From Spongiibacteraceae bacterium (GTDB lineage Bacteria > Pseudomonadota > Gammaproteobacteria > Pseudomonadales > Dasaniaceae): a DNA stretch of 52,137 nt. The translations under genes were made by a program, and so were the position numbers. The stretch covers positions 1 through 52,137 of the forward strand of contig JANQLG010000049.1 in assembly GCA_028280715.1 (NCBI GenBank), read 5' to 3'. The notes under the pieces are model-generated. The model worked only from the letters and a program-made list of their open reading frames with translations, was not told where the DNA came from and ran no database searches. This document shows positions 9,348 through 52,137 of the stretch, piece by piece. Each line of letters opens with the position of its first letter. The first letter of the stretch is position 1.

Positions 9348-10835
9348 TTAATGCGTCGGCATGGCAAACTCAGCACCTAGTTCTGATTGAATCCAGCGTG
9401 CGGTGATTGCTTTGCGCTGCGTATAAAAATGTACGCCTTCCGGACCGTGCATATGGTTGGCTCCAAACAGTGAGCGCTTCCAGCCACCAAAACTATGAAA
9501 GGCCATCGGCACAGGAATGGGTACGTTTATACCGACCATTCCTACTTGAATACATTGGGTGAATTCTCTAGCTATGCCGCCATTATTGGTAAAGATTGAG
9601 GTACCGTTACCGTATTCGTGGGCATTGATCAATTCAACTGCAGTGGCAAAGTCGGGAACTCTGACCACAACTAACACGGGGCCAAAAATTTCCTGTTGAT
9701 AGATGGTCATATCCTGGCTGACCTGATCAAACAGGCAAGGGCCGAGAAAATACCCCTCAGGGTTTTCGTTATTCTTATAACCGCGACCGTCGAGTACCAA
9801 TTTTGCGCCTTCGCTGACGCCGGTATCGACCATGCTTTTTACTTTTGCCAGATGCTCTGCGCTGATTAATGGTCCCATATCTAAACCGGCTTCTACACCA
9901 TTACCAATTTTCAAGTTGCTGGCTTTTTCGGCTAACTTTTCTACTAGTGTATCGGCGATATCACCCACTGCAACGGCGACAGAAATAGCCATGCAGCGTT
10001 CTCCCGCTGAGCCATAGGCTGCGCCGATTAATGCATTCACAGCTGAATCGATATTGGCATCTGGCATGACAACCATATGGTTCTTGGCACCGCCTAAAGC
10101 TTGCACGCGTTTACCATGGGCGCATCCCTGTTGATAGATGTATTCGGCGATGGGTGTAGAACCGACGAAGCTGACTGCGCGAATGTCCGGATGTGCAAGA
10201 ATTCTATCGACTGCGGTTTTGTCACCGTTAACCACGTTAAAAACGCCATCAGGTAAACCGGCTTCTTTTAACCAACTGGCAATTAATTGTGATGCACTGG
10301 GATCTTTTTCTGAAGGCTTTAATACAAATGTATTGCCGCAGGCAATGGCCACTGGCCACATCCACATTGGCACCATCACTGGAAAATTAAAGGGCGTGAT
10401 ACCGGCCACTACGCCTAATGGTTGACTGATACTCCAGGCATCGACATCGCGACCGACTTGATCAGTATGGCTACCTTTAAGCAGCTCTGGAATACCACAA
10501 GCGAATTCGACAACTTCCAGTCCGCGAATAATTTCGCCGCGAGCATCTTCTTTAACTTTACCGTGTTCGCGAGTGACGCAAGCGATCAGTTCATCCATAC
10601 GTTGTTCGAGAATGTATTTAAACTGGAATAAAATTCTGGCGCGATTTAGTGGTGTGACGGCAGCCCAATCGTGGCTGGCATTTTTTGCAGCCTGTACCGC
10701 GTCATCAACTTCGTTATCTGAAGCCAAGGCAACCTGCGCGATGTTTTCGCCGGTCGCAGGATTAAACACTGCCGCCAAACGAGGGTTAGGTTCGTGTTGT
10801 GTGTTGCCGTTTATGTAGTGAGGGATAATTTGCAT
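9348..10835 (-). CDS. mmsA/iolA: CoA-acylating (methyl)malonate-semialdehyde dehydrogenase
   Basis: The 495-residue aldehyde dehydrogenase superfamily protein has the usual MmsA/IolA length. Diagnostic segments are [20 protein letters not shown], the NAD-binding segment [14 protein letters not shown] and the catalytic-cysteine segment [14 protein letters not shown]. The C-terminal region reads [19 protein letters not shown]. It oxidises malonate semialdehyde to acetyl-CoA (last step of inositol breakdown) or methylmalonate semialdehyde to propionyl-CoA (valine breakdown). iolC-iolJ and iolD at the other end of the window favour the inositol role. It lies 50 bases after the GH115-like gene as last gene of the leftward LacI-controlled run. 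Confidence 0.93.
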
Positions 10836-10885
10836 AGCGATTCCAATAGATGATACTGAGTATTCAATTTGATCAATAATAAAAC

Positions 10886-12997
10886 TTACGGCTTGACGGT
10901 TGTTGGCCAGCCGTTATTCAAATGATCTTCAATATTTTGTAGATCTGCTTCGTTGGGAAAACCATTGTTGGGTCTGCGTTTTTCTGGCGCATACCAGCCG
11001 GCCCAGCGCTCATTTAAATCACCCTGTTGACGACGGTTGTGTAAGGTGGCCAAGTGCGTTTTTGCCGTTGCGATGATTGATTTGGCTTCACTCAATAATT
11101 CCTGATCAGCAGTTTTAGCGTATTGTTGTTTTAGCTGCACTAATCGATGCAGATCATGGTTGTAATTCAGTAAGTCCTGATACAATTTAATCGGCAGATA
11201 AATATGGTCATGATAAAAGTGTGTGCTGTCTTGAATTTTGGCACGGCCACTTTCAGCGGCAGCAGCGGCATCTTCTAACAATGTCATACGGCGACGAACG
11301 GGCTCGATAATCGCTTCAATATCGTTAAAGCTAACAGGTATCGGTGTGCGGTCGGGGCGTTGGATAGGTTGATCCATTAAAAATGCAACAGACATTTTAA
11401 TTTCCCAGAGATGTTGCACGTAACCGACATTGTCAAATTGTGCATCGTGTAAGCGAGTGAGGGCCATAACCGTATCGTCAACAACGGAGATGTTGTTAAC
11501 TTCTGGGCTAGTATTAACTTCTGGATTGGAGTTAACTGCCGAGCTGGCAAAATAACGCGTTATCCAATCACGATAAAATTGTTGGCCGTCAAAATCTTCA
11601 GGAGACTGTGCAACCAAACTAAAAGCTTCCAGGTTGATCACAAATAATCGAAAGGTTTGACCGTTCACCATTAAGTAATGATCACCATTAAACCGTTCAA
11701 AAAAATCGGTCATCACTTGTTGGATTTTTTCAGGGTAGGGGTCGTGAACATCGTGGTTAAGCCAAAACCCGGCGTGCATGTAACTGCCAAATTTAAAGCC
11801 GTCGGTGCTTTCCGGTTCTAGTCGGAAGTCACCCCAGCCGTCGTCAGGCCAGGCAATAATGAAATTCTCTGGTGGTCTAAAACCTTCGTTATAGAGTTCC
11901 ATGCCATCGTCATAACACACACAGACTCGGACTGAATCTGGTTTATATTGATTCAATACATTATTGAGTTCGGCATAAACTTCATTGAATACTTGGACGC
12001 GATCTTCTTCACAACTGCTTCTATAAGGCCAGTCTAAAACTTGATTTCGTGGCCTTAAGGTAAAAATGTCGGCATCTTTGATGGGGGTTTCTGTTAAATA
12101 ATAAGTCCAGGTATCAATCCATTTTTGTTTGTGTTCGCGCCAACAATTGGATTCTTCCATGGTGATGGATTTAAAGGGGCGGCCCATCATCATGTCAATT
12201 TGAATATGCATGCCTTTTTGCTTGGCGTAATCGATCATTTTTTCCAGCAAAGGCATATTAAATTCATAATCGGGACGAATAGCTTTGTAGCCGGGGCGGG
12301 TATAAAACTCGACGCGACCCAGCATGTCGAAAAACTCGATGCCGTTGTAGCGTAACCGAACCAGTGAATCGATCATCTGGGTGTAGTTTTCCCAATCGTA
12401 TTCCAGATAGGGTTTCTTCATATTAGCGAGTTCGTCGACATCGTTTTCGAAGTACACTAAATAGGGTACTTGTGGTGGTTCGATAGTGCGCGCTTCAAAG
12501 TTATAGACATCCAGTTCGGGGTTAATGATTGGCTCAATGCCTGTCCAATAAGTGAGTGGATCTACGCCTAAAATATCGCGGCTATAGTCATAAGTTGCAT
12601 ATTGAGTGCCCTGAACATCGGAACCGGCTAATATGGCAATAGTTTTATTATCAAAAACAGTTTTCGCCCATATGCCGCCTCTTGATCCGGGCAAATCAGC
12701 GCTAAGTGTTAATTGCTGATTATTGACTAACGAATCAATCAAAGCGTGCTGCCCTACGGTACCGACAACAATGATTTTTTCAGTGTTCGGTAGTGTGCCT
12801 GTCCAGGATTCAACGGCAACGGATTGCTTGCCAATTTTTATCAAATCATTTTTTAAATCATTAGCGGTGATATGGTCAGTGATGTGCTCTTCTTCGCTAA
12901 TGATAATAGTAATGCCACTGCTACTGTCTGATGTATTACTGCAACCAGAAAGGAATTGAAGAAAAACAATAAAGACTAATAAAAGATATTTGGACAC
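10886..12997 (-). CDS. GH115-like glycoside hydrolase lipoprotein (candidate alpha-glucuronidase)
   Basis: The 703-residue lipoprotein has lipobox FLSGC near residue 19. The segment [27 protein letters not shown] resembles the N-terminal domain shared by GH67/GH115 enzymes. The segment [20 protein letters not shown], then WGDFR and [18 protein letters not shown], resembles the GH115 catalytic region (VPDDVTLLWCDDNWG-like). The central part diverges and the protein is shorter than many GH115 enzymes. GH115 members release alpha-glucuronic acid from xylan or arabinogalactan. The start is GTG at 12997, with GAGAG nine bases upstream. Divergent uxaC and uxuB support glucuronate release. The family call is from remembered motifs; another alpha/beta-barrel hydrolase is possible. 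Confidence 0.62.
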
Positions 12998-13035
12998 GGC
13001 ATTAACTCTCTAGATAATTTCGTTATAGACACACA

Positions 13036-14070
13036 TTAAATAGTATTGCTGGATTCTCTAATAATGAGTTGGCAATCCATCGTTACTTTTTTGTTAGTTT
13101 CAGTTTTATTAGTTTCAGCACTGCCAGCATTTCTATGATTGAATTGATCAATCAACATGGCTGCTGCGGTATGGCCAATATCGCCAAAGGGTTGGCTTGC
13201 CGTCGTTAAGCGAGGCCAGAGTTGTTGTGAAAAGGGTGTATCATCAAAACCAACCAGTGATATTTGTTCAGGAATTTTAATGCCGTGGTTGTGTATTTCG
13301 TACAGCACACCACATGCCATATCATCGTTACCCGCAAAAATTGCAGTGGGTCTGTTATCCCGTTCCAGCAATTCAACCGCGGCAGAACGGCCTGATACAT
13401 AACTGTTCATACCCTGTGCGATCAAAGATTCGTCAATATCAAGATGATGTTTTTGCATCGCTTCACGAAAGCCCTGTTCCCGTTGCAGACTGGATGCGAG
13501 ATCAGGATGGCCTTTGATATAAGCAATCCGTTTGTGTCCCAAGCTGATCAGGTACTCGGTTAGATCAAAGGCAGAGCGTTGATTGCTTATGCTAACGGTT
13601 AGACCGTGATCGGTGTCCTTGGGGTTGATACAGACGTAATTAATATTTCGTCGTTTCAGCATGTCGATTAACGGCTGCTGGTCACAGACGGGCGAGGGGA
13701 GAATAATGCCGTCTACTAACGTACTGGTGATCATGTGCTCGATATCTGCAACCAGGTCTGGCGATTTATAGCTGCATTCATGTAGGAATAATCCCATTCC
13801 TCTCGAATGACATGCAGCCAAGATGCCCTCTTGTAAATGCATTAAAAAGCTATGACTTGGGTTGTCGTATACCAATGCTATTAAATAGGAGCGTTTGTGG
13901 GCGAGGGCCAGCCCTATGGGGCTGCGTTTAAAATTGAGTGCTTCAATGGCCGCAAGTACTTTATCGCGCGTAGCCGGGCGCACATTGGGCTCGGAATTTA
14001 ACACACGGGAGACAGTTTTCTTGGATACCCCTGCGTGTTCTGCTACATCGACAATGGTTGCTTTAGTCAT
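13036..14070 (-). CDS. LacI family transcriptional regulator
   Basis: The 344-residue protein has a typical LacI helix-turn-helix (TIVDVAEHAGVSKKTVSRVL, residues 4-23) and a hinge helix. The periplasmic-binding-protein-like sensor domain follows (LIALVYDNPSHSFLMHLQEG, AIFAGNDDMACGVLYEIH, ISLVGFDDTPFSQQLWPRLT). It sits between the HAD gene and the GH115-like gene in the leftward run. The upstream bidirectional promoter carries TTGACACCGGTGTCAA, a LacI-type palindrome with central CG, so autoregulation is likely. The same operator precedes the GPH transporter and the TonB receptor. The effector is probably a hexuronate-pathway intermediate or a glycoside of the substrate. Confidence 0.93.
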   Translation of the reverse strand: MTKATIVDVAEHAGVSKKTVSRVLNSEPNVRPATRDKVLAAIEALNFKRSPIGLALAHKRSYLIALVYDNPSHSFLMHLQEGILAACHSRGMGLFLHECSYKSPDLVADIEHMITSTLVDGIILPSPVCDQQPLIDMLKRRNINYVCINPKDTDHGLTVSISNQRSAFDLTEYLISLGHKRIAYIKGHPDLASSLQREQGFREAMQKHHLDIDESLIAQGMNSYVSGRSAAVELLERDNRPTAIFAGNDDMACGVLYEIHNHGIKIPEQISLVGFDDTPFSQQLWPRLTTASQPFGDIGHTAAAMLIDQFNHRNAGSAETNKTETNKKVTMDCQLIIRESSNTI

Positions 14071-14138
14071 CAGTCTATTTCTTTAATCTGGATTGAAAAA
14101 AGGCAAAAAACATTTTTGCTTCTTTGCGTATTATTGTT

Positions 14139-14840
14139 TCAACCAGTGATTGCTAAGCTGTTAATTATTAATTGCTGCAGTTCTGTCATATCTTTAATCA
14201 AGATTGTGCCAGTGTTAAAGGGGCTGGATTTGCCCGTTGCAACAACACCAATAAACGGCATGCCATTTTCAAGCGCAGCATCCTGGTCGACCTTGCCATC
14301 ACCTATCATTAAACAGTTTTTAGCTGTCAGGTCATGACGCTGCAGAATATTAGCAATATTTTTTTCTTTACGCGTCGGTGTGCCGCGAATTTCAGTAAAA
14401 TGATTGGTTAAACCACGCGCAGTGATGATGTCCTGTAATTCTTTTTCTGGTGTACCTGAGACCACAAAAGTTTTTAGTATCTGAGGCAATGAATTCAAGA
14501 GTTGATAACTGCCATTAATCGCTTCGCAGTTAATCACTGCCTGCATCGATCGTTCTTTAAATTGCGCTGACAGTTGGTCAATTTCTTCTGTAGTGACTGG
14601 CTGTTGTAGTACATGCTGGAATATATGAAGCAATTTTTCCTGGCGCGAGCGCCCTGTGTATCGATAGAAAATATCAGCAATTTGTTGCTGCATGGTTTCC
14701 GGCTGATCGACAAATAGCGACATAAATGCCTGGGCTTTAATATCCACTGAATCGACGAGCACACCGTCAAAATCAAAGAATATTGCGGATAATCCGCTGC
14801 CAGTTAACTTGTCCAGATCTGTAAATCCAACGTTGTTCAT
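14139..14840 (-). CDS. HAD family hydrolase (phosphatase or phosphomutase type)
   Basis: The 233-residue protein has the HAD nucleophile motif DFDGV at residues 23-27, a helical cap, motif II VVSGTP, and the later Lys and acidic motifs (RKEKN and CLMIGDGKVDQDAALENG). This cap type occurs in phosphoglycolate-phosphatase and beta-phosphoglucomutase-like enzymes. It is the first gene leftward from the palindromic promoter, upstream of lacI, the GH115-like gene and mmsA. The substrate is unknown. Dephosphorylation of a sugar- or inositol-phosphate would suit the locus, but that is inference from context. Confidence 0.82.
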   Translation of the reverse strand: MNNVGFTDLDKLTGSGLSAIFFDFDGVLVDSVDIKAQAFMSLFVDQPETMQQQIADIFYRYTGRSRQEKLLHIFQHVLQQPVTTEEIDQLSAQFKERSMQAVINCEAINGSYQLLNSLPQILKTFVVSGTPEKELQDIITARGLTNHFTEIRGTPTRKEKNIANILQRHDLTAKNCLMIGDGKVDQDAALENGMPFIGVVATGKSSPFNTGTILIKDMTELQQLIINSLAITG

Positions 14841-14968
14841 GATGTGCTCGACGTAAATAGCCCGCGAATATATTTAAAATTCCTAGTGCATTTAAGCTCT
14901 TAGGAGAGCTGTTTGACTCTTATGAGTGCTTTATAGGTATTGTTTCTGGGACAACTCTCGATATTATT

Positions 14969-15020
14969 AGTGATTTATACTGCCAATTGACACCGGTGTC
15001 AATTGGCAGTATAAATCACT
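14969..15020. promoter_or_regulatory. Perfect 52-bp palindrome: mirror-image divergent promoters on one LacI-type operator
   Basis: The two 26-base arms are exact reverse complements. The centre is TTGACACCGGTGTCAA (14987-15002). On the plus strand TTGACA (14987-14992), a 17-base spacer and TATAAA (15010-15015) make a near-consensus promoter for uxaC. By symmetry the minus strand has the same arrangement (-35 at 15002-14997, -10 at 14979-14974), driving the HAD-lacI-GH115-mmsA run. Both -35 boxes lie within the operator and overlap across its centre, so one bound repressor would block both directions. Confidence 0.9.
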
Positions 15021-15028
15021 TTATTGAT

Positions 15029-15064
15029 GGTTTCAGGCGTTAGTCAGGTCTATTCACTGAAACC
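15029..15064 (+). other. Inverted repeat in the uxaC leader
   Basis: GGTTTCAG (15029-15036) and CTGAAACC (15057-15064) can pair in the predicted 5' leader of uxaC, with a 20-base loop. The repeat sits between the predicted transcription start near 15022 and the start codon at 15094. It may stabilise the leader or bind a regulator. Confidence 0.35.
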
Positions 15065-15093
15065 GTGTTTTTAAGATAAAGGCAGAATAAAAA

Positions 15094-16509
15094 ATGTCAC
15101 AAGCCCTAACACTACGTCCCGACAGGTTATTTTCATCTGATACCACGCAAAGAGCCATTGCGCAGCGGCTATTTCAGCATGTTGAAACGCTGCCGATTAT
15201 CAGCCCTCATGGCCATACGGATCCGCGATGGTTTGCTTATGATGAAAACTTTGCCAACCCCACGGATTTACTGATTCAACCGGACCATTATGTGTACCGA
15301 ATGCTGTATAGCCAGGGAATAACACTGGATGAGCTGGGTATTCCTCGCAGTGATGGCAGTGTTGCGGATGTTGACCCCCGTGAAGTGTGGCGCTTGTTTG
15401 CCAATCACTACCATCTGTTTAGAGGTACGCCATCGGCTTATTGGTTGAATTATGTGTTCAGCAGGGTATTTGAAATAGATGTGCGGTTAAGCGGTGATAC
15501 TGCCGACGTTTACTATGACACCATTAATAATGCGTTAGCCACTGATGCCTTCAAGCCGCGGGCATTGTTCGAGCGCTATAACATTGAATTGCTGGCGACT
15601 ACAGAATCTCCTCTCGATGAATTAGAACATCATCAGGCGATTCTCGATTCAGGTTGGTCTGGCAGGGTGATTACTGCCTTTCGGCCCGACCCAGTCATTG
15701 ATCCAGATTTTGAAGGCTTCATTGATAATCTAAAGAGCCTTGGTGAGATTACCGGTTTAGATTGCCTGAACTATACGCAATACCTGCAGGCGCTGCGCCA
15801 GCGTAGAGCCTATTTTGCCAAAATGGGTGCTACTTCAACGGATCACGGACATCCTACGGCACGAACGGCTGACTTAAGCACTCTCGAAGCGGAACAATTG
15901 TTCAACACCGTGACGTCGGGTGCTTTTTCCAAAGAAGATGCGGAATTATTCCGTGCTCATATGTTGATGGAAATGGCGGGGATGTCATTGGAAGATGGTT
16001 TGGTGATGCAAATCCATCCGGGTGCTTTCCGCAATCATAATGCGAGAGTGTTTGAACATTATGGGCGGGATAAGGGAGCAGATATTCCTTCGGCTACAGA
16101 TTATGTATCGGATCTTAAGCCACTATTGGATCGTTACGGCAATGAACCGAATTTAAATATTATTCTCTTTACGTTGGATGAAACCAGTTACAGTCGTGAA
16201 CTGGGACCGCTGGCGGGACATTATCCTGTGTTAAAACTTGGGCCGTCCTGGTGGTTTCACGATAGCCCGGAAGGTATGTTGCGTTTTCGTCGTTCAACCC
16301 ATGAAGTGGCTGGATTTTATAACATGGTTGGTTTTAATGATGACACGCGGGCATTTTTATCGATCCCTGCGCGCCATGATATGGCTCGTCGTATGGATTG
16401 CGTGCATCTCGCCGAGTTGGTTGCCACCCATCGCCTGGAGGAAGATGAAGCGGCGGAGTTGGCAGTAGATTTAGCCTATAACTTTGCTAAGCAAGCGTAC
16501 AAACTTTAG
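15094..16509 (+). CDS. uxaC: Glucuronate/galacturonate isomerase
   Basis: The 471-residue protein equals the usual UxaC length (about 470). Family segments are PIISPHGHTDPRWFAYDE with metal-ligand histidines, LFRGTPSAYWLNYVFSRVF, LEDGLVMQIHPGAFRNHN and KLGPSWWFHDSPEGMLRFRR, then GFYNMVGFNDDTRAFLSIPARHD. It converts D-glucuronate to D-fructuronate and D-galacturonate to D-tagaturonate in the cytoplasm. It is the first rightward gene from the palindromic LacI-type promoter and is followed by uxuB (57-base gap) and a thuA-like gene. Confidence 0.97.
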   Translation: MSQALTLRPDRLFSSDTTQRAIAQRLFQHVETLPIISPHGHTDPRWFAYDENFANPTDLLIQPDHYVYRMLYSQGITLDELGIPRSDGSVADVDPREVWRLFANHYHLFRGTPSAYWLNYVFSRVFEIDVRLSGDTADVYYDTINNALATDAFKPRALFERYNIELLATTESPLDELEHHQAILDSGWSGRVITAFRPDPVIDPDFEGFIDNLKSLGEITGLDCLNYTQYLQALRQRRAYFAKMGATSTDHGHPTARTADLSTLEAEQLFNTVTSGAFSKEDAELFRAHMLMEMAGMSLEDGLVMQIHPGAFRNHNARVFEHYGRDKGADIPSATDYVSDLKPLLDRYGNEPNLNIILFTLDETSYSRELGPLAGHYPVLKLGPSWWFHDSPEGMLRFRRSTHEVAGFYNMVGFNDDTRAFLSIPARHDMARRMDCVHLAELVATHRLEEDEAAELAVDLAYNFAKQAYKL

Positions 16510-16566
16510 TGCATAACAATAAGTATTTTTCGACAATGTTCAAGGGTAAATGTTCAGAGGTAATAG

Positions 16567-18099
16567 TTGACTAGTCAAGTGGATACATTAGAGCGTTTGC
16601 ATGAAGGACTTGTGTCTCGGCTTGCTTCCTCATCAGCGGCTTCACCGATCAGTGATGTGCGTTATGATCGTAAGTCTCGTGGCTACGGTATTGTTCATTT
16701 AGGTATTGGTGCCTTTCACCGTGCTCATCAAGCCGTGTATACCGATGATATATTGGCGAAGGAAGGCGGAGACTGGAAAATACTGGCAGTATCGCTGCGC
16801 AGTGCAGGTGTTAGAGATCAGTTACAATCACAAGATTGCCTGTATACCGTAGTGGAAATGGACAAAACGGAAACCGCCTATCGTATCATTGGTTCAGTAG
16901 GTGATGTGCTGGTCGCTCCAGAGAGCCCACAAGCAGTGATCGATGCCATGATTGATCAAAACTGCCGAATTATTTCGTTAACGATTACTGAGAAAGGGTA
17001 TTGTCATGATCCTGCCACTGGCAGATTGAATCAGCAACATCCCGATATTGTTCACGATCTCGCTAACCCCAAACAACCTAAGAGTGCGATTGGTTTTATT
17101 GTTGAGGCAATACGCTGTCGTCGTGAGCAGGGTTTACCGGTCGCAACGGTGATGTGTTGTGATAACCTGCCGAACAATGGTGCCACTCTGAAGCAGATTA
17201 TATTGGACTATGCTTCATTAATTGACGAACAGTTAGCACAATGGATTGATCAGCAAGTGCCTTTCCCCAATACCATGGTTGACCGTATTGTGCCTGCTAC
17301 ACAGGAAGAAGACATCCAGCAGTTGCAGCAGACTTACGGTTATAACGATTTAGGTATGGTGAAAACAGAGCGTTTCACTCAGTGGGTTATTGAAGATAAC
17401 TTCGCTTCAGGTCGTCCAAACTGGGAAGCGGTTGGCGCGATGTTGGTGGACGATGTTGAGCCCTTTGAATTAGCTAAATTGCGATTGCTTAACGGTACGC
17501 ATTCATCATTAGCCTATCTTGGATTTTTAGCGGGTTATGAGTATGTGCATCAGGTAGTTGCTGATAAAGACTTTTTAAAATTCTTACGGCAATTGATGTT
17601 GGAAGAAATTGCTCCAACCTTACAAGCACCAGCGGGAATGGATTTAACCGCTTATGCAGACAGTTTATTAGAACGCTTTGCCAATCCTGGCCTAAACCAC
17701 AAGACCTACCAGATTGCGATGGATGGTTCGCAAAAATTACCGCAACGTTTGTTAGGCACCTTGCGTGATCGTTTGGCTGCCGAACAAAGCATTGACTATC
17801 TGTCATTGGCCATTGCCGGTTGGATGCGTTACGTCATGGCCTTTGATGAGAAGGGCGATGATATCCCTGTTCAAGACCCGATGGCTGAGGTATTAAAAAC
17901 TGTTGAGCAAGATAGCTATGATACGGAAGAGAAATTGCTCGATATTCATAAGCTGGTTGATGGCTACTTAAGCATGAGTGAAATATTCGGCAGTGACTTA
18001 TTAGCTAACACTCATTTCAAAGAACGAGTAAGCTATTGGTTAGGCCATATACTGGCTAACGGTGTGGCCATTACACTGAAGATTTTTTTAACCCGCTAA
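16567..18099 (+). CDS. uxuB: D-mannonate oxidoreductase (fructuronate reductase)
   Basis: The 510-residue long-chain polyol dehydrogenase is related to mannitol 2-dehydrogenase. Diagnostic segments are GYGIVHLGIGAFHRAHQAVY (NAD binding), VMCCDNLPNNGATLKQII, PNTMVDRIVPAT and RLLNGTHSSLAYLGFLAG, the last around the catalytic Lys/Asn/His set. It reduces D-fructuronate to D-mannonate; ManD is encoded at 39537. The family also contains mannitol dehydrogenases, but uxaC upstream settles the role. The start is TTG at 16567, supported by AGAGG seven bases upstream. Confidence 0.9.
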   Translation: MTSQVDTLERLHEGLVSRLASSSAASPISDVRYDRKSRGYGIVHLGIGAFHRAHQAVYTDDILAKEGGDWKILAVSLRSAGVRDQLQSQDCLYTVVEMDKTETAYRIIGSVGDVLVAPESPQAVIDAMIDQNCRIISLTITEKGYCHDPATGRLNQQHPDIVHDLANPKQPKSAIGFIVEAIRCRREQGLPVATVMCCDNLPNNGATLKQIILDYASLIDEQLAQWIDQQVPFPNTMVDRIVPATQEEDIQQLQQTYGYNDLGMVKTERFTQWVIEDNFASGRPNWEAVGAMLVDDVEPFELAKLRLLNGTHSSLAYLGFLAGYEYVHQVVADKDFLKFLRQLMLEEIAPTLQAPAGMDLTAYADSLLERFANPGLNHKTYQIAMDGSQKLPQRLLGTLRDRLAAEQSIDYLSLAIAGWMRYVMAFDEKGDDIPVQDPMAEVLKTVEQDSYDTEEKLLDIHKLVDGYLSMSEIFGSDLLANTHFKERVSYWLGHILANGVAITLKIFLTR

Positions 18100-18128
18100 G
18101 TTATTGTCTGGGATATGAGTCACGAGCT

Positions 18129-18911: not shown

Positions 18912-18938
18912 TTTATGAACTGACGCCCCCAGTGAGAT

Positions 18939-19934: not shown

Positions 19935-20052
19935 TGTTATTGTTACCTCTTGAATTGCTGCCAGTGCGCGGGTCTGTCTGAGACAGTGGGTTTAGCTCAT
20001 ATTGAGTCTAGATTAAACGCGACTTGCTTTTATTAAGAATAATCGTTTTTAA

Positions 20053-20080
20053 TTGACACCGGTGTCAATACGAATATTAT
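20053..20080. promoter_or_regulatory. LacI-type operator overlapping a divergent promoter region
   Basis: TTGACACCGGTGTCAA at 20053-20068 repeats the core of the 52-bp palindrome exactly. On the plus strand TTGACA (20053-20058), a 16-base spacer and TATTAT (20075-20080) would serve the GPH transporter. On the minus strand TTGACA (20068-20063), an 18-base spacer and GATTAT (20044-20039) could serve the Gfo/Idh gene. Confidence 0.82.
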
Positions 20081-20221
20081 AAGATGTCTATGATACAAGG
20101 CAACAGCAAGTTGGAGTGTTTGTAGTGCTCATTGGCGTTGCTTATCGGTATTGTTGCCAGAGCTAGTAACTATCTCTAATAGATAAATTCTAATAAATAA
20201 AAAAGTAGCAGGTGTAAGCCT

Positions 20222-43292: not shown

Positions 43293-43344
43293 CACAAAGG
43301 TCTGATACAAACAATAACGTGATGATAATTAAAAAGGTGACACT

Positions 43345-44652: not shown

Positions 44653-45620
44653 TGCGGCCAGTGTTGTGCTTCGGTGAAGCACTAATTGATTTTTTGAACA
44701 CCGGCAATGATCCCGATGGGCCATTATCACTGCCGACCTTTCGCCAATATCCGGGCGGCGCTCCCGCCAATGCTTCAGTGGCAGTGGCCAAGTTGGGCGG
44801 TACCTCCCGTTTTGTTGGGCAGGTAGGTGATGATGCCTTTGGTCATTTTATTTTGTCTGCCTTGAAGCGATACGGTGTTGATACAGAATTAGTCAGTCTC
44901 CATCCCACTGCAAAAACGGCTCTGGCTTTTGTGATGCTGGACGAAGAGGGCGATCGCAGTTTTTCATTTCATCGCTATCAAACAGCCGACGTAGTCTTTG
45001 CCGAAAATCAGTTACAACAGGGCTGGTTTAACGAAGAAACGATTTTTCATTTTTGTAGCAATACATTAACGGATAACGATATCGCTACTGTGACTCAGCG
45101 AGCGGTGAATATAGCGCGTGACATGGGTGCAACAATCAGTTTTGATGTGAATTTACGTCACAACCTATGGCCTGATAATCGTGTCGATCACGATGTGGTT
45201 AACCGCTGCGTACACAGTGCGGATATTTTAAAGTTTGCCAGTGAAGAATTGGATTATCTTGCCCAGGGCAATTCCGAAGCCTATTTGCAAACCTGTTTGG
45301 ATCAGGGTGTGCAATTAATTTTGATTACTGATGGCCCCAATCACGTACGTTTTATCACCGCAAATATTGATGATTCCATTGCGTCACCAAAAGTCGATGC
45401 TGTGGATACTACCGCGGCCGGCGATGCCTTTAGTGGTGCCGTGTTGTATGGAGTGAGTCGAGCATCCAATCTTAAAGCGATTATTAATGATGCTGATCAT
45501 ATTCATGCACTGCTTAATTTTGCTGTGCACTGTAGTGCATTGACGGTTACCAAACCGGGTGCATTTCCAGCATTACCCAGCTTCGATGAAGTCAAAACAC
45601 ATTGGAAGGATATGCCATGA
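44649..45620 (+). CDS. Fructokinase (PfkB family)
   Basis: The 323-residue PfkB kinase reads like ScrK-type fructokinases: PVLCFGEALIDFL, RQYPGGAPANASVAVAKLGG, QVGDDAFGHFILSAL and the C-terminal VDTTAAGDAFSGAVLYGV with catalytic Asp. The usual DTTGAGD is DTTAAGD here, a conservative change. It would convert fructose from the mannose isomerase to fructose 6-phosphate. The GTG at 44649 has AAAGGAG seven bases upstream; an ATG at 44652 is the alternative. Its stop overlaps the next start as ATGA. Confidence 0.88.
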   Translation: MMRPVLCFGEALIDFLNTGNDPDGPLSLPTFRQYPGGAPANASVAVAKLGGTSRFVGQVGDDAFGHFILSALKRYGVDTELVSLHPTAKTALAFVMLDEEGDRSFSFHRYQTADVVFAENQLQQGWFNEETIFHFCSNTLTDNDIATVTQRAVNIARDMGATISFDVNLRHNLWPDNRVDHDVVNRCVHSADILKFASEELDYLAQGNSEAYLQTCLDQGVQLILITDGPNHVRFITANIDDSIASPKVDAVDTTAAGDAFSGAVLYGVSRASNLKAIINDADHIHALLNFAVHCSALTVTKPGAFPALPSFDEVKTHWKDMP

Positions 45621-46801
45621 ATCAGCAAGTGTCTTATCGTGACAAAGCATTTTTACTTGATCATATAAAAAGTATTTTGGCGTTTTACCACCCGAATATC
45701 GTCGATACATCGGGTGGTTTTTTTCAAAATTTTCTAGATGATGGCTCAGTATTTGATGGCGATAGTCGTCACTTGGTTAGCAGTACGCGGATGGTGTTTA
45801 TTTACTGCAAAGCCTATCAATTGTTTGGTGATGAAGAATATTTACGCCGCGCTGAACACGGTTTGGCTTACCTTCGTAACGTACATTGGGATTCAGAGCG
45901 TCAGGGTTATAACTGGACACTTAAAGCGCATGAAGCCGATGATCAAACCAATCACTGTTATGGTTTGGCTTTTGTCATATTAGCCTTTGCTACCGCATTG
46001 GAAACGGGATTCGAAGATGCTAGAGCTGATCTGGACAATGCCTACGCATTAATGGAGCAGCATTTTTGGCAAGCAGAAGATGGTTTGTATGCCGATGAAG
46101 CCAGTAGCGATTGGTCGGCAGTGTCTGATTATCGCGGTCAAAATGCGAACATGCATAGCTGTGAGGCAATGCTTGCGGCTTATGAGGCGACAAAGGATGC
46201 TAAGTTTTTAGATCGCGCTTATCAATTAGCAAAAAAATTCGCCGTCGAAATGGCAGACAAAGCAGATGGTTTGATCTGGGAACATTACAGCAAAGATTTA
46301 GCCATTGACTGGCAATACAATAAAGACGATCCAAAAAATCTTTATCGCCCCTGGGGCTTTCAGCCTGGTCATCAAACCGAATGGACAAAATTATTATTGT
46401 TGTTACACAGCCACCGGCCTGAAGACTGGATGTTGGAACGCGCGCAATCATTATTCGATCGTGCATTAGACGTTAGTTGGGATAATGAATTGGGTGGCAT
46501 TCTCTATGGCTTTGCACCGGATGGCAGTATTTGTGATGACGATAAATATTTTTGGGTACAAGCCGAGAGCTTTGCCGCGGCAGCGCGATTAGCTGTGGTA
46601 ACTGGCGATGAAAAATACTGGCAATGGTACGACCGTATTTGGGCCTATGCCGATGCACATATGATCGATCATCAATATGGCGCCTGGTACCGCGTGCTTA
46701 ATCGACAAAATCAAAAACTGTCAGATCAAAAGTCCACCGCAGGTGGCAAGTGTGATTATCACACCCTGGGCGCCTGTTGGGATGTGTTGCGTGTTATTTA
46801 A
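45617..46801 (+). CDS. AGE family epimerase/isomerase, probable D-mannose isomerase
   Basis: The protein has about 394 residues and an (alpha/alpha)6-barrel of the N-acylglucosamine 2-epimerase family. Expected catalytic His residues lie in NHCYGLAFVILAFAT, NANMHSCEAMLAAYEAT and FQPGHQTEWTKLLLLLHSH. The length and the lack of N-acetyl-sugar genes nearby fit mannose isomerase (mannose to fructose) better than the acylglucosamine epimerase. Cellobiose 2-epimerase is another related activity. The ATG at 45617 overlaps the kinase stop by four bases; the frame is open to a TTG at 45602. With the kinase it forms a mannose to fructose 6-phosphate route. Confidence 0.85.
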   Translation: MNQQVSYRDKAFLLDHIKSILAFYHPNIVDTSGGFFQNFLDDGSVFDGDSRHLVSSTRMVFIYCKAYQLFGDEEYLRRAEHGLAYLRNVHWDSERQGYNWTLKAHEADDQTNHCYGLAFVILAFATALETGFEDARADLDNAYALMEQHFWQAEDGLYADEASSDWSAVSDYRGQNANMHSCEAMLAAYEATKDAKFLDRAYQLAKKFAVEMADKADGLIWEHYSKDLAIDWQYNKDDPKNLYRPWGFQPGHQTEWTKLLLLLHSHRPEDWMLERAQSLFDRALDVSWDNELGGILYGFAPDGSICDDDKYFWVQAESFAAAARLAVVTGDEKYWQWYDRIWAYADAHMIDHQYGAWYRVLNRQNQKLSDQKSTAGGKCDYHTLGACWDVLRVI

Positions 46802-46836
46802 CTTTATAAACTTTGCAAACGTAGATTGAAAAAATA

Positions 46837-48996
46837 ATGAAAAAATATTTTCTATTAAGTACCGTTTTTTTATGTGCGCTAACCGCTTGTTCAGAATCAA
46901 CGCAAAATGATCAAACTGATTCTGAAAAAAGTGCTGATAATGTATTGCACTATGTTGACCCTTTTATTGGTACTGCCGGTGATCATGGTCAATTGCATCC
47001 AGCGGCAATGCTTCCCTTTGGTATGATTCAAGTCGGGCCTGATACGGTTGGTAAAAGTCACTCCGGTTATGACTTTGAACAAAATGAGCTGCTAGGATTT
47101 AGCCATAATCGTAGCGCTGGTGTCGGTTGCCGTGGTTCTGGTGGCGACTTGTTGTTGTTGGCAAGTTACAGTAACCGAGTTAGTGCAGACAATGAATTTA
47201 ATCCAGTCGCACTGAATAAAGAACAGGAGTTAGCAACACCTGGTTATTACAAAACAGCCTACGGTGAAGATGCTATTATTGCAGAGATGACGGCATCGGC
47301 CAGTAGTGGTTGGCAACGCTATACCTTTCCCAAAGCCGGTGAAGTGCTGTTGATGGGCGATTTATCGCACTCGCATGATAATTTTTATTCCGGCAGTTAT
47401 CGTATTGTAGAAGGTGCTGCCAGCGAATCATTCATTTTCGGAAGTATTGAAGCGTCAACGGTTTGCAGAAAAGGGAAATATCAAGTTCATTTCAGTTTAG
47501 GCACATCGCTTAATCCTGAACAAATAAAGAAGATCGGTGATCACCAGTTTGCTTTGGTATTTAATGTTGAAGCAGGGCAGCAACTGCTGGTACAAACTGC
47601 TTTTTCATCCATTGATTCAGAACATGCTGATTCATTGCGCAAGGCAGAAAGTGCCAACGATACTTTCCTAACCGTTAAGCAAAACGCTGAACAATTATGG
47701 CGCGACAAACTTAATCGGTTTGCTCTCGAAGGTGGCGAAGACTATAAAAAATTATTTTATACCCATTTGTATCATACCTATTCGTCGCCATTTAAAGTTG
47801 CCTCGCAGGGAGAAAAATATCGCGCTCCTGACAATGCCATATACACATCGGATGTTGGTGACCATTATCTTAGTTGGTCTATCTGGGATACCTTCAGAAC
47901 CAAGTTTCCGCTGTTAACGATCACCGATCCGGAAGCAATGATCGATATTACTCGTTCCCTGGCGCGTTTGTATTCGCAGGGTAAACAAGCCTGGGCGACG
48001 GAAACAGAACCCTATTTAACGGTAAGAACGGAACATTCCGGCATTGTGTTATTGGATGCATGGAATAAAGGCATTGCCGGTTTTAATCCCGAAGACATTA
48101 TCTCGCTATTAAGCGAAGAAGCCGATGCATTGGAAAGGAAATCTCCAGATCAAGTGTTGGAAGCGGCTTATGATGACTGGGCTGTTGCCGAGTTCGCTAA
48201 CATTATCGGTGATGACGACCTCGCCAATAAATATAGGCAAAGAGCTAGTAGTTATCGTCCATTATGGCTTGAAAAATTTAAAGTGATGGATGAAAACTCC
48301 GACATTATGCATGGTGATGGTTTATACGAAGGCACACTTTGGCAGTACCGCTGGTTTGTTCCCTTTGATACACAATGGCTAGTTGAACAGTTAGGTGGTA
48401 ACGAAGGATTTTCCACAGAGTTAAGTACTTTCTTTGCACAAGAATTATATAACATGGGCAATCAGCCCGATATCCAGTCGCCGTTTATGTTTAATTTTTC
48501 TTCGGCGCCTTGGAAAACGCAGCAAATAGTCAATCAAATTCTTACTAAGCCAATGAATCATTGGTATGGCACTCATGAAAAATTCGAAACGCCTTATTTT
48601 GGTAAGGCCTTTGATACTTCGCCTAAAGGTTATATTCGTGAGATGGATGATGACGATGGCACCATGGCGGCTTGGTTTGTGTTTGCGTCAATGGGTTTAT
48701 ATCCAGCCGCACCTGGGTTGCCACTATATAGCCTACACACACCAATATTTTCTGAAGTAACGATTAATCACGATAACGGTGATCAATTTCAAATCGTTAC
48801 GCATGATTTCAGTGAAGACAATATTTATATTCAAAAGACGGTACTGAATGACATGCCATTAGAACGCGCATGGTTGTCTCATGCAGAAATCATGCAGAGT
48901 GGTAAGTTGGAAATCTGGCTTGGCAGTGAGCCCAATAAACAGTGGGGTACCGATGACGTGCTGCAAACCAGTCTCGAAGAAGTCGCTACGCATTAA
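46837..48996 (+). CDS. GH92 family alpha-mannosidase-like lipoprotein (second copy)
   Basis: The 719-residue lipoprotein has its lipobox (LTAC) at residues 15-18. GH92 segments are DPFIGTAGDHGQLHPAAMLP, LGFSHNRSAGVGCRGSGGDL, YTHLYHTYSSPF, SWSIWDTFRTKFPLLTI, then MDDDDGTMAAWFVFASMGLY near the Ca site and the catalytic acids. This is the more canonical of the two copies. It likely removes terminal alpha-mannose outside the inner membrane. It lies 35 bases after the mannose isomerase gene and 38 before iolC-iolJ, which ties mannose release to inositol use in one run. Confidence 0.92.
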   Translation: MKKYFLLSTVFLCALTACSESTQNDQTDSEKSADNVLHYVDPFIGTAGDHGQLHPAAMLPFGMIQVGPDTVGKSHSGYDFEQNELLGFSHNRSAGVGCRGSGGDLLLLASYSNRVSADNEFNPVALNKEQELATPGYYKTAYGEDAIIAEMTASASSGWQRYTFPKAGEVLLMGDLSHSHDNFYSGSYRIVEGAASESFIFGSIEASTVCRKGKYQVHFSLGTSLNPEQIKKIGDHQFALVFNVEAGQQLLVQTAFSSIDSEHADSLRKAESANDTFLTVKQNAEQLWRDKLNRFALEGGEDYKKLFYTHLYHTYSSPFKVASQGEKYRAPDNAIYTSDVGDHYLSWSIWDTFRTKFPLLTITDPEAMIDITRSLARLYSQGKQAWATETEPYLTVRTEHSGIVLLDAWNKGIAGFNPEDIISLLSEEADALERKSPDQVLEAAYDDWAVAEFANIIGDDDLANKYRQRASSYRPLWLEKFKVMDENSDIMHGDGLYEGTLWQYRWFVPFDTQWLVEQLGGNEGFSTELSTFFAQELYNMGNQPDIQSPFMFNFSSAPWKTQQIVNQILTKPMNHWYGTHEKFETPYFGKAFDTSPKGYIREMDDDDGTMAAWFVFASMGLYPAAPGLPLYSLHTPIFSEVTINHDNGDQFQIVTHDFSEDNIYIQKTVLNDMPLERAWLSHAEIMQSGKLEIWLGSEPNKQWGTDDVLQTSLEEVATH

Positions 48997-49034
48997 CCGA
49001 TAAATGTCGAAAATTTTTTTGCAGGAAATCATGT

Positions 49035-50981
49035 ATGACAAGTGCCACTATTGCAGCTAATAACAAATCACTGGATGTTATTACTATTGGGCGCGCCAGT
49101 GTGGATTTGTATGGCCAACAAATTGGTGGACGGCTCGAAGATATGGGTTCCTTTGCCAAATATGTTGGTGGCTGTCCGGCCAATATCGCCGTTGGTACAT
49201 CGCGCTTGGGTTTAAAGTCAGCACTATTGACCGGTGTCGGTGAAGACCATATGGGACGTTTTATCATCGAACAATTGGAAAAAGAGGGCGTATGTATCGA
49301 TGGTATTAAAAGAGATTCAGAACGTCTAACGGCTTTGGTAATTTTGGGTATCAGAGATCAGGAAACCTTTCCTTTATTATTTTATCGTGAAAATTGTGCC
49401 GATATGGCACTGTGCAAAGCCGATGTTAATCCGGAGTTCATTCGCTCTTCCCGTTCAGTATTAATTACGGGTACGCATTTATCGACACCTACTGTTAGAG
49501 AAGCCAGTATGGAAGCGGTGCGATTGGCAAAAGAAAGTGGCGGCAAAGTTATTTTGGACGGTGATTATCGGCCAGTGTTGTGGGGTTTAACCACACCGGA
49601 GTTGGGTGAAGAGCGTTTTATTGCCAATGATGAAGTGACACAACAATTGCAGGAAGTATTGCCGCTGTGTGACTTAATTGTCGGTACCGAAGAAGAACTG
49701 CATATTTTGGCAGGCACAACCGATACCTTAAAAGCCATAAATATTATTCGTAATCTATCCAGTGCAACGATTGTTTGCAAGCGTGGTGAAAAAGGCGCGG
49801 TAGTATTTGATGGTGAGATACCTGCCGATTTGGATCAAGGCATCTCGCATCCCGGTTTTCCTATCGAAGTATTCAATGTGTTAGGTGCTGGCGATGCGTT
49901 TATGAGTGGATTCTTACGTGGCTGGTTGCGTGATATGCCGTTAGAAGAGTGTTGCAAATTGGCCAATGCCTCGGGTGCATTAGTGGTGTCGCGTCATGGT
50001 TGTGCACCGGCAATACCGAGTTGGGATGAAATCCAGTATTTCTTAAAAGAAGGTTCAAGCTATAGCGCATTAAGGTTGGATGAAAAACTGAACCATGTTC
50101 ATCATGCTTCGAACAGAGACGTTGAATATAACAATGTCATGATTGCCGCATTTGATCATAGAAGTCAGTTTGAAGAGATTGCTGCCAGCGTGGGTGCAGA
50201 CAATGCAAAAATCCCTGAATTTAAACAACTGATATTGAATGCCGTTAACCAGGTGAGTAATGATCAAAACGGATTAGGGATTCTGGCAGATGGTCGATTT
50301 GGATCAAGAGTATTGGAGCTGGCTGCCGATCACCCTTATTGGATTGGACGACCGATTGAATTGCCAGGCTCATGCCCACTTGAATTTGAAAGTTCGGCAG
50401 ATGTGGCTACAGAAATTAATGAATGGCCATTGAATCACGTGGTTAAGTGTTTGTGTTTTTATCACCCCGATGATCCGGAATCTTTAAAGATACAACAGGA
50501 AGCACAACTACTCAGATTGTACGATGCCTGCAGGAAAACCCGGCATGAGTTGCTACTTGAAATTATCTGTTCAAAAAACGGTGAGGTTGATCAGTTTACT
50601 GTCAGTCGAGCTATGCAACGGTTTTATGATTTAGGTATTTATCCTGATTGGTGGAAACTGGAACCAGCACGGGATAGCGAGACTTGGAAAAATATCGAAG
50701 ATACCATCAATAGTAACGATCCACACTGTCGCGGTATTTTGCTATTGGGTTTATCCGCAACGGAAGCAACATTAAAGGAAAAGTTTGCCATTGCCGCTGA
50801 CTGTAATGCAGTAAAAGGTTTTGCGGTAGGTAGAACTATTTTTGCGGAACCGGCAAAGCAGTGGTTTGCGGGTAATATCGACGATGCTGAAGCCGTGCAG
50901 CAACTAAAAACTAATTACCTCAATTTGATTAACATTTGGCAACAAGTCAGACCCTCTATCGGTAATGGCGTAACAGGCTAG
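49035..50981 (+). CDS. iolC: Fusion of 5-dehydro-2-deoxygluconokinase (IolC) and DUF2090 aldolase-like domain (IolJ)
   Basis: The 648-residue protein has two parts. Residues 10-335 are a PfkB kinase with DVITIGRASVDLYGQQIGGR, KYVGGCPANIAVGTSRLGLK and the C-terminal ATP motif NVLGAGDAFMSGFLRGWL, all typical of IolC. Residues 355-645 are a DUF2090 domain (VMIAAFDHRSQFEEIAASVG, LGILADGRFGSRVL, WWKLEPARDSETW, VKGFAVGRTIFAEPAKQW). The domain is thought to cleave 2-deoxy-5-keto-gluconate 6-phosphate to malonate semialdehyde and dihydroxyacetone phosphate. Fused forms are common in proteobacteria. MmsA/IolA at 9348 can use the malonate semialdehyde. Confidence 0.94.
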   Translation: MTSATIAANNKSLDVITIGRASVDLYGQQIGGRLEDMGSFAKYVGGCPANIAVGTSRLGLKSALLTGVGEDHMGRFIIEQLEKEGVCIDGIKRDSERLTALVILGIRDQETFPLLFYRENCADMALCKADVNPEFIRSSRSVLITGTHLSTPTVREASMEAVRLAKESGGKVILDGDYRPVLWGLTTPELGEERFIANDEVTQQLQEVLPLCDLIVGTEEELHILAGTTDTLKAINIIRNLSSATIVCKRGEKGAVVFDGEIPADLDQGISHPGFPIEVFNVLGAGDAFMSGFLRGWLRDMPLEECCKLANASGALVVSRHGCAPAIPSWDEIQYFLKEGSSYSALRLDEKLNHVHHASNRDVEYNNVMIAAFDHRSQFEEIAASVGADNAKIPEFKQLILNAVNQVSNDQNGLGILADGRFGSRVLELAADHPYWIGRPIELPGSCPLEFESSADVATEINEWPLNHVVKCLCFYHPDDPESLKIQQEAQLLRLYDACRKTRHELLLEIICSKNGEVDQFTVSRAMQRFYDLGIYPDWWKLEPARDSETWKNIEDTINSNDPHCRGILLLGLSATEATLKEKFAIAADCNAVKGFAVGRTIFAEPAKQWFAGNIDDAEAVQQLKTNYLNLINIWQQVRPSIGNGVTG

Positions 50982-51011
50982 AGAACGGACTATAGACGAG
51001 GCGAGAATACT

Positions 51012-52137
51012 ATGAAAACTGTTCGTTTAACCATGGCGCAGGCTTTAGTCCGGTATTTGTCGAATCAATATGTGCTTATCGATGGCGAAGAGCAGCCTTA
51101 TTTTCATGGTGTGTGGGCGATATTTGGTCACGGTAATGTCGCCGGCCTCGGTGAAGCGCTTTATGAGTATAAAGATAGACTCCCCACATATCGTGCCCAT
51201 AACGAACAAGGTATGGCACACGCGGCCATTGCGTTTAGTAAAGAAAAAGTCAGAACCCAAGCGATGATTTGTACAACATCAATCGGTCCTGGCGCTACTA
51301 ATATGGTTACAGCTGCGGCGCTTGCCCATGTCAATCGCTTGCCGGTTTTATTATTGCCGGGTGATGTGTTTGCTAACCGGCGACCTGATCCGGTACTGCA
51401 GCAAATCGAGGATTTTACCGATGGTACAATTTCTGCCAACGATTGTTTTAAACCGGTTTCGCGATATTTTGATCGCATTGTAAGGCCTGAACAAATTTTA
51501 ACTGCACTGCCACGCGCAATGCATACCTTTTTTGATGCGGCCAATTGTGGTCCGGTTACGTTATCGTTGTGTCAGGATATACAGGCTGAGGCCTATGACT
51601 ATCCAGAAAGTTTCTTTGAGAAAAAAGTCTGGCAACAGAAAAGAACTATTCCAGAACAAAATGATATTGAAAAACTGGTTAGCTTAATTCGTTCAGCCAA
51701 ACAACCGTTGATTGTCAGTGGTGGCGGTGTGCACTATGCGGGGGCCTGTGAAAGCTTATCAACATTTGCCACTGCAACAGGTATTCCTGTGGTAGAAACG
51801 CAAGCCGGTAAAAGTGCATTGGCTTGGAATCATTCGCAATGTTTAGGTTCGGTAGGTGTAACTGGAACTAGCGCTGCTAACCAGGCGGCAGAAACTGCTG
51901 ACCTGATCATTGCCATCGGGACACGGCTACAGGATTTTACCACGGCATCGCGGGCATTATTTGCTAACCCCGACAGGCAGCTAGTGCAGGTCAATGTCAA
52001 TATTTATGACAGTCATAAGCATGGTGCTATTGCGGTTCAGGCTGATGCCAGGTTGTGTATAGAAACACTACAAGAGCTTTTAGCTGATTATTATGTATCC
52101 GATAGTTGGCAAAAATTTTATCAACAACAGCAACAAT
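51012..52137 (+). CDS. iolD: IolD, trihydroxycyclohexane-1,2-dione hydrolase (cut by window end)
   Basis: About 375 residues of an expected 620 or so are present; the gene runs off the window. It is a thiamine-diphosphate enzyme of the acetohydroxy-acid synthase superfamily. IolD segments are MKTVRLTMAQALVRYLSNQY, GVWAIFGHGNVAGLGEALYE, YRAHNEQGMAHAAIAFSK (with the cofactor-activating Glu) and CTTSIGPGATNMVTAAALAH. It opens the ring of the inositol-derived dione to 5-deoxy-glucuronate. It follows iolC-iolJ by 30 bases. Confidence 0.95.
   Translation, partial: MKTVRLTMAQALVRYLSNQYVLIDGEEQPYFHGVWAIFGHGNVAGLGEALYEYKDRLPTYRAHNEQGMAHAAIAFSKEKVRTQAMICTTSIGPGATNMVTAAALAHVNRLPVLLLPGDVFANRRPDPVLQQIEDFTDGTISANDCFKPVSRYFDRIVRPEQILTALPRAMHTFFDAANCGPVTLSLCQDIQAEAYDYPESFFEKKVWQQKRTIPEQNDIEKLVSLIRSAKQPLIVSGGGVHYAGACESLSTFATATGIPVVETQAGKSALAWNHSQCLGSVGVTGTSAANQAAETADLIIAIGTRLQDFTTASRALFANPDRQLVQVNVNIYDSHKHGAIAVQADARLCIETLQELLADYYVSDSWQKFYQQQQQ

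Follow-up and report, generated by a model that had tools for sequence, protein, structure and literature searches.

The window analysed here, a whole 52,137-nucleotide contig (C2, JANQLG010000049.1) of a Spongiibacteraceae bacterium assembly (GCA_028280715.1; 3.83 Mb, 98% complete, 50 contigs), contains at positions 9348-52137 a locus that probably serves the utilisation of a glycosylated inositol phospholipid head group, most likely that of glycosyl inositol phosphorylceramide (GIPC; mannose or glucosamine on glucuronic acid on inositol phosphate on ceramide). An earlier note, made from the sequence alone, had proposed that each gene group matches one part of this head group. A single glycosyl-inositol-phospho substrate for all these parts is now well supported by shared operators, by the co-location of related genes in Algibacter, and by the linkage, in other genera, of MIOX (myo-inositol oxygenase) to PI-PLC (phosphatidylinositol-specific phospholipase C) or to GH115. 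The identity of the substrate as GIPC we infer from gene content, and glycosylphosphatidylinositol (GPI)-type or other inositol glycolipids are possible. A broader proposal, which we regard as evenly balanced, is that this locus belongs to a hitherto undescribed kind of GIPC-feeding locus in Bacteroidota, in Catenovulum (a gammaproteobacterium) and in the window’s organism, in which a dedicated GH115 branch would unlock the lipid for PI-PLC and the inositol would be used through either MIOX or the Iol enzymes.

Genes were assigned to families by Pfam and NCBIfam profile searches, with 30 window proteins scanned against Pfam. The gene list of the earlier note proved real, as profiles matched every family it named, some below their specific cut-offs. 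The PI-PLC is of the Ca2+ type (PI-PLC-C1; 21714-22829, plus strand; PF16670, E 6.9e-105; PDB 3h4w/5fyo), has a signal-peptide-like start as judged by eye, and is the only PF16670 match in the genome. Its residues H58, E103, D105 and H151, conserved histidines and acidic residues with roles in PI-PLC, are invariant across five aligned proteins. A calcineurin-like, exported-type phosphatase follows (22899-24149, plus; PF00149, Metallophos), and the window also encodes two GH92 alpha-mannosidases, GH92a (33456-35744, minus) and GH92b (46837-48996, plus), both with PF07971/PF17678 and with GH92 E-values of 5.7e-140 and 3.4e-94 between them. A candidate alpha-glucuronidase (10886-12997, minus) matched the GH115 profile PF15979 (E 3.5e-15; 56.8 bits, cut-off 27), but it is short and divergent and lacks the C-terminal domain. 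The phosphatase, the GH115 and both GH92 proteins have lipoprotein-type leaders, recognised by pattern only.

The catabolic routes were confirmed to differing degrees. For glucuronate, UxaC glucuronate isomerase (15094-16509, plus; PRK02925, 581 bits, cut-off 387) and ManD mannonate dehydratase (39537-40745, plus; NF043051, 751 bits, cut-off 550) exceeded their NCBIfam cut-offs, while the UxuB-like fructuronate reductase (16567-18099, plus; PF01232/PF08125; PRK15037, 475 bits, cut-off 603) and the KdgK-like kinase (40780-41742, plus; NF052444, 246 bits, cut-off 400) fell into the right Pfam family below them. For mannose, the GluP/FucP-like permease (43345-44652, plus; TIGR01272, 341 bits, cut-off 203) passed, while a fructokinase-like PfkB kinase (44649-45620, plus; PRK09434, 212 bits, cut-off 450) and an AGE-family, mannose-isomerase-like protein (45602-46801, plus; PF07221, E 3.2e-109; NF051846, 230 bits, cut-off 600) were again assigned by Pfam family. 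For inositol, an IolC/IolJ fusion (49035-50981, plus; NF047869, 772 bits, cut-off 600) and an MmsA/IolA-type (methyl)malonate-semialdehyde dehydrogenase (9348-10835, minus; TIGR01722, 680 bits, cut-off 448.5) were above cut-off; IolD (51012-52137, plus; TIGR04377) is represented by only the first 370 of 616 positions, as the contig ends inside the gene. The remainder of iolD lies at the end of contig C9 (20,779 bp), with 27 identical overlapping residues, and is followed by iolB (PF04962). Beside iolB on that contig, a 746-aa protein (L015:15920-18160) has no Pfam match.

These genes form two blocks of closely spaced runs, which we take as probable operons. In the left block (9348-29178), a leftward run begins with a HAD phosphatase-like gene (14139-14840, minus; PF13419) and continues through a LacI-family regulator (13036-14070, minus; PF00356/PF13377) and GH115 to MmsA, with gaps of 38-68 bp (50 bp between GH115 and MmsA); UxaC, UxuB and a ThuA-family gene (18129-18911, plus; PF06283) run rightward from the same divergent region. 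From a second divergent region, a GFO/IDH/MocA oxidoreductase that is weakly IolG-like (18939-19934, minus; PF01408; TIGR04380, ~60 bits, cut-off 355) runs leftward, and a GPH-family symporter (20222-21694, plus; PF13347; TIGR00792, 189.9 bits, cut-off 231), PI-PLC, the phosphatase and a GH28-family glycosidase (24252-25865, plus; PF00295) run rightward with gaps of 19-102 bp. A third region precedes a TonB-dependent receptor (26434-29178, plus; TIGR01782, 687 bits), which shows 49-59% identity (best segment) with receptors encoded close to PI-PLC in L026, in two Catenovulum loci and in four Alteromonas loci. In the right block (33456-52137), a leftward run comprises a UxuR/ExuR-like GntR/FCD regulator (38618-39319, minus; PF07729/PF00392; best NCBIfam matches UxuR and ExuR, below cut-off), the TRAP transporter genes DctP, DctQ and DctM (35843-38611, minus; PF03480, PF04290, PF06808) and GH92a. 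The rightward run is ManD, KdgK, a UxaA/galactarate-dehydratase family gene (41742-43292, plus; PF20629/PF04295), the FucP-like permease, fructokinase, AGE, GH92b, IolC/J, IolD and, on C9, iolB. Intergenic gaps from ManD to IolD are only -19 to 52 bp, so that a mannosidase and the catabolism of glucuronate, mannose and inositol come together in one gene run. The LacI, HAD, ThuA, GFO/IDH, GPH, GH28, TonB receptor, TRAP, GntR and UxaA-like genes had not been named in the earlier note.

All three intergenic regions of the left block contain the perfect palindrome TTGACACCGGTGTCAA. It lies at 14987-15002, between HAD and UxaC, inside a longer perfect palindrome of 52 bp (14969-15020) whose centre it forms, and again at 20053-20068, before the GPH, PI-PLC and phosphatase genes, and at 26244-26259, before the TonB receptor; at these last two sites the palindrome arms are only 9-10 bp. 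Its 14-bp core, TGACACCGGTGTCA, has three copies in the 3.83-Mb genome, all in this locus, against a random-sequence expectation of ~0.014 and none in a reversed control, and shuffles of the window gave 0.13 matches with up to three mismatches to the palindrome. The LacI-family regulator is presumed to bind the palindrome, and the shared operator links PI-PLC with GH115, with the glucuronate genes and with MmsA. The regulator is 47% identical to the LacI of a locus in Catenovulum sp. 2E275 (L035), in which the same core occurs five times; two of these copies precede the TonB receptor and the others MIOX, GH115 and the LacI/PI-PLC divergence. Sixteen-mers with one and two mismatches also precede the receptor of L026, the locus with the nearest PI-PLC (53% identity). 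The exact core was found in 6 of the 177 loci examined, four of them from the window’s own contig and two from Catenovulum; seven further loci (L041, L072, L078, L081, L087, L098, L173) have sites with three mismatches, which were treated as background. We found no mention of this core with LacI in the open-access literature. A second, GntR-type palindrome, TTGGTCNGACCAA, has one exact copy at 25920 and was not used: its three sites with up to two mismatches are close to the 1.8 expected, so nothing was drawn from it.

The short GH115 shares 43-50% identity with the short forms of Catenovulum and Maribacter. The GH115 C-terminal domain PF17829 gave no match in the window protein, while it was present in both full-length forms scanned. 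A structural model of the short protein reached pLDDT 78.1 from an alignment of 13 rows (four short GH115s alone gave 57.6), and its 11 best Foldseek chains were all GH115 (best E 9e-23, TM 0.55-0.63 of the query, root-mean-square deviation 6-8), an outcome favoured by the nine full-length GH115 rows among the 13. Of the presumed catalytic acidic residues, D322 is invariant, and the glutamate of full-length forms (in PYKEV) aligns with D364 of the short forms. At E <= 1e-60, short forms were found in 3 of 395 Bacteroidota genomes (including the centre genome G102) and only in the own genome among 369 of the window’s class. The short GH115 directly adjoins a GH92a-type gene in all six Bacteroidota genomes in which we saw it (L063, G102/L064, G107, G123, G124, G419). 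In G419, MIOX lies ~12 kb from it, together with a GH28 and with no PI-PLC in the 40 kb read. A tree was built from 20 GH92s, each taken from the window or from a locus with PI-PLC or GH115. In it, GH92a grouped with eight Bacteroidota copies and GH92b with four Algibacter copies and that of G049 (from PI-PLC loci), both at 100/100, with long branches and a corresponding treekit warning. As no outside GH92s were included, this tree does not tell whether the clades are confined to loci of this kind. In three Algibacter genomes, a single locus contains relatives from the clade of GH92a and from that of GH92b.

We sought the same gene set in other genomes, starting with the best 80 of more than 80 PI-PLC loci on genome contigs (up to 10 kb on each side; several were shorter), in which genes were counted by BLAST with Pfam confirmation of representatives only. 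A long metallophosphatase was found in 16, GH115 in 11, GH92 in 9 (each with GH115), MIOX in 6 and GH28 in 6 (L040, L043, L045, L083, L095, L100); GH125 (3), GH43 (3), GH89 (2), GH29 (2) and UxaC (1) were rarer. When four long phosphatases of related loci were compared with that of the window by BLAST, no homology was recognisable. The fullest loci, in Algibacter, Maribacter and Flavobacterium, comprise with variations SusC/D, GH92, GH28, one of GH125, GH29, GH3 or GH89, PI-PLC, full-length GH115, the metallophosphatase, a hybrid-sensor-like protein and MIOX, and Algibacter loci group relatives of both window GH92s, GH28 and PI-PLC with a GH115. In Catenovulum sp. 2E275, MIOX, short GH115, LacI, PI-PLC, phosphatase and TonB receptor lie together, along with GH2 and GH43. 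Algibacter lectus (G107) splits the set: GH115-GH92-GH29-GH29-GH3-esterase-like-GH115-phosphatase-sensor-MIOX stand at one place, and PI-PLC with TRAP, UxaC and UxuA at a second (L089). That second place (L089:10001-17847), in which GntR also lies beside PI-PLC, is a compact PI-PLC and glucuronate set, and G251 has a similar one. In seven Pontibacter/Pedobacter loci of the 80 (L050, L053, L054, L062, L069, L077, L080), an alkaline phosphatase relative (PF00245 in L053) accompanies PI-PLC and no long metallophosphatase was found. The PI-PLC at L026:1382-3529 has ~385 extra N-terminal residues without a Pfam match, counted from the predicted start codon.

Further evidence comes from 149 evenly sampled Flavobacteriaceae genomes (minimum completeness 90), of which 14 have a full PI-PLC (E < 1e-100; two with weaker matches were left out, although one of them, G184, was above the family cut-off) and 26 have MIOX (E < 1e-90; 38 genomes with weaker matches were dropped, two above the family cut-off). 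MIOX was present in 10 of the 14 PI-PLC genomes and in 16 of the 135 others (Fisher p 3e-6). In 6 of the 10 genomes with both, MIOX lay 6-13 kb from PI-PLC, where 0.07 such cases within 15 kb would be expected under uniform gene placement, an assumption that overstates significance because catabolic genes cluster; in one of the six (G127), two stops interrupt the MIOX frame. Leaving out the centre genome G102, which had been chosen for its locus, gave 9 of 13 versus 16 of 135 (p 1.3e-5), with five linked. Within ~20 kb of the 14 PI-PLCs (only 13 kb on one side in G232), GH92 was found in six, GH115 in five (all with GH92 and MIOX) and UxaC in three (G251, G266, G175). The set of PI-PLC, alpha-glucuronidase, mannosidase and inositol catabolism sought on the earlier note’s suggestion is thus co-located in full in five genomes (G096, G102, G124, G175, G250), with partial sets elsewhere, and is lacking from most PI-PLC loci. 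On the earlier note’s question whether inositol and uronate parts travel together, the picture is mixed: they are linked, through MIOX, in some Flavobacteriaceae and in Catenovulum, but IolC/J occurs with a full PI-PLC, among 95 relatives (own genome included), in the own genome only.

Taken on gene content, these observations would fit the following scheme for GIPC. PI-PLC uses the 2-OH of inositol as its nucleophile; GH115 should therefore act before it. GH92 and GH125 enzymes remove mannose, GH89 alpha-linked N-acetylglucosamine and GH43 arabinose, and solved GH115 structures include alpha-1,2-glucuronidases, according to their entry titles. The predicted exported lipoproteins GH92a and GH92b would trim mannose, and the short GH115 would remove alpha-1,2-linked glucuronic acid from inositol, freeing its 2-OH; PI-PLC could then release inositol phosphate, from which the metallophosphatase would yield inositol. 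The pieces would be imported through the TonB receptor and the TRAP, GPH and GluP/FucP-like carriers. UxaC, UxuB, ManD and KdgK would process glucuronate, AGE and fructokinase mannose, and IolC/J, IolD and IolB with MmsA inositol. The order of steps, like export and the substrate itself, is predicted. In the broader proposal, a dedicated GH115 branch (the short form, with or without a full-length form) would cut the alpha-1,2 bond between glucuronic acid and inositol, and some Flavobacteriaceae and Catenovulum would pass the released inositol through MIOX, which oxidises it to glucuronate, while the window’s organism would use Iol enzymes. In the MIOX users, both units would thus enter one pathway. 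The head group of tobacco GIPC is GlcNAc(a1-4)GlcA(a1-2)inositol-1-P-ceramide, to judge by the title of Hsieh 1978 (in PMC7980081), and Arabidopsis GIPC head groups also carry mannose, galactose, arabinose and glucose, according to excerpts of PMC9113257.

Several observations weigh against this reading of the locus. Neither GH92 nor GH115 was present in the stretch examined of 69 of the 80 best PI-PLC loci, and MIOX exceeded its cut-off in 18 of 28 hand-picked PI-PLC genomes, leaving 10 without it, including two Alteromonas. About 4 kb separates the two halves of the locus, and the operator is not in the right half. No IolE match was found in the own genome, in a search that was positive in 7 of 14 control genomes, and the genome’s IolG-like proteins were all below cut-off, which leaves a gap in the inositol route. 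Among the 95 relatives, PI-PLC occurred in 6 and IolC/J in 8; besides the own genome, only G057 has both, its PI-PLC being a weak, partial match, and the stretches read around PI-PLC in G048 and G053 contain none of the remaining genes for glycan or inositol use. The iol operons of relatives with IolC/J are more complete and include an IolE-like start, as judged by eye. On the supporting side, G002, of the same genus, encodes a 36% homologue of the window’s phosphatase and an inositol monophosphatase near an iol operon, and G003, also of the same genus, has PI-PLC between AGE and a PfkB kinase/TRAP set. In G049, a GH92 is one gene away from PI-PLC. To our knowledge, the window’s organism has no plant link. 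GIPCs with glucuronic acid on inositol phosphorylceramide are called plant-specific in excerpts of PMC9113257, and inositol sphingolipids have been reported from red seaweeds, according to reference titles in PMC4820303.

The glycosidase-free PI-PLC neighbourhoods also count on this side, as do the findings given below on G123, on the Catenovulum locus without GH92, and on the GH28 and UxaA-like enzymes. In 6 of the 14 Flavobacteriaceae genomes, only SusC and/or a phosphatase, and none of the glycosidases sought, lay within ~20 kb of PI-PLC (one of these, G245, also has a distant aldehyde dehydrogenase). Such neighbourhoods would suit a PUSI-like core of TonB receptor, PI-PLC and phosphatase that scavenges phosphorus from phosphatidylinositol or GPI lipids, with the uronate, mannose and inositol genes merely nearby. 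PUSI of Flavobacterium johnsoniae, the closest described system, consists of PusCD1 with PF16670 and PF00149 proteins and is induced by phosphate depletion, as excerpts of PMC8115612 describe it. The window resembles it in its outer-membrane TonB-type transporter, PF16670 PI-PLC and PF00149 phosphatase; in the same excerpts, however, PUSI is described as lacking carbohydrate-active enzymes of the type found in polysaccharide utilisation loci (PULs), whereas in the window PI-PLC shares its block with GH115 and GH28, and genes for the breakdown of uronate, mannose and inositol and a LacI-type operator are present as well. Two of six Pho-box-like sites with three mismatches in the window precede PI-PLC (21689) and the TonB receptor (26154), but six such sites against 4.37 expected, with none better, are within chance. 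Moreover, PI-PLC has a genome-unique operator in common with UxaC, GH115 and MmsA, and GH92, GH115 and MIOX recur beside PI-PLC in other genomes. We therefore regard phosphorus scavenging as an unlikely account of the locus, below GIPC use.

Two further substrates appear less likely still. If the locus addressed GPI anchors or plant arabinogalactan proteins attached by them, the anchor would supply mannose, inositol and phosphate, and the glycan glucuronic acid. The solved BtGH115A is described in its entry title as specific for decorated arabinogalactans, the 40 kb read at the Catenovulum locus, which has GH2 and GH43, contain no GH92, and some other PI-PLC loci have GH43, GH2 or GH3. Against this, no galactanase-type family was among the Pfam matches of the window’s blocks, the only place where galactanases were sought, and GH92 accompanies all five GH115-bearing loci of the Flavobacteriaceae sample. 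Similarly improbable is a locus for degrading glucuronomannan or a polysaccharide like it, beside a separate cluster for inositol use. In G123, short GH115 and GH92 occur without a PI-PLC match in the genome and without MIOX in the 40 kb read, and the GH28 and the UxaA-like enzyme, for which the standard GIPC head group has no place, hint at another uronic acid; galacturonic acid is unexpected in that head group, and the GH28 may be of another specificity. Glucuronomannan would, however, leave unexplained the PI-PLC and the phosphatase themselves, the operator that they have in common with GH115 and UxaC, and the MIOX linkage. Lastly, catabolic genes cluster generally, and the AlbA-domain and GGDEF-EAL genes between the blocks (30590-33399) look unrelated to the locus, so chance clustering of unrelated catabolic genes was considered; we rejected it as extremely improbable, given the genome-unique operator common to several genes and the recurrence across two phyla. 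Both of these last alternatives had been raised in the earlier note, and both are weakened by the operator and the recurrence.

Also between the blocks lies a Vps62-like gene (29553-30383, plus), which may be part of the system. Four Alteromonas loci (L055, L060, L072, L073) each have a relative with 62-63% identity at a distance of ~8 kb from PI-PLC. The contig start (1-46) is the 3' portion of a tRNA gene (Rfam RF00005).

Compared with known systems, the proposed GIPC locus resembles the SusC/D-type PULs of Bacteroidota in grouping glycosidases, outer-membrane uptake, catabolic genes and a regulator. Unlike them, its likely target is a lipid head group rather than a polysaccharide, and no SusD family was among the Pfam matches of the 30 scanned window proteins, despite the TonB receptor. 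It has the IolC/J, IolD, IolB and MmsA of iol operons, but IolE was not found in the genome, and its inositol genes are joined to mannose and glucuronate genes. BcGIPC-PLC1 of Botrytis cinerea likewise performs a phospholipase C step on plant GIPC and releases inositol phosphate glycans, but is, according to excerpts of PMC11496612, a sphingomyelinase-like fungal enzyme acting on intact GIPC, while the bacterial enzyme belongs to PF16670 and is accompanied by glycosidases. As the earlier note had supposed, no described bacterial GIPC-utilisation locus was found in the open-access literature, with subscription journals and preprints outside the search and long result lists viewed in part. GIPCs are called the major sphingolipids on Earth in the abstract of PMC7570276. 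If our reading is true, it would put names to enzymes for an as yet unassigned flow of carbon and phosphorus from plant-type membranes, assign a new substrate to a branch of GH115, and provide tools for cutting GIPC glycans.

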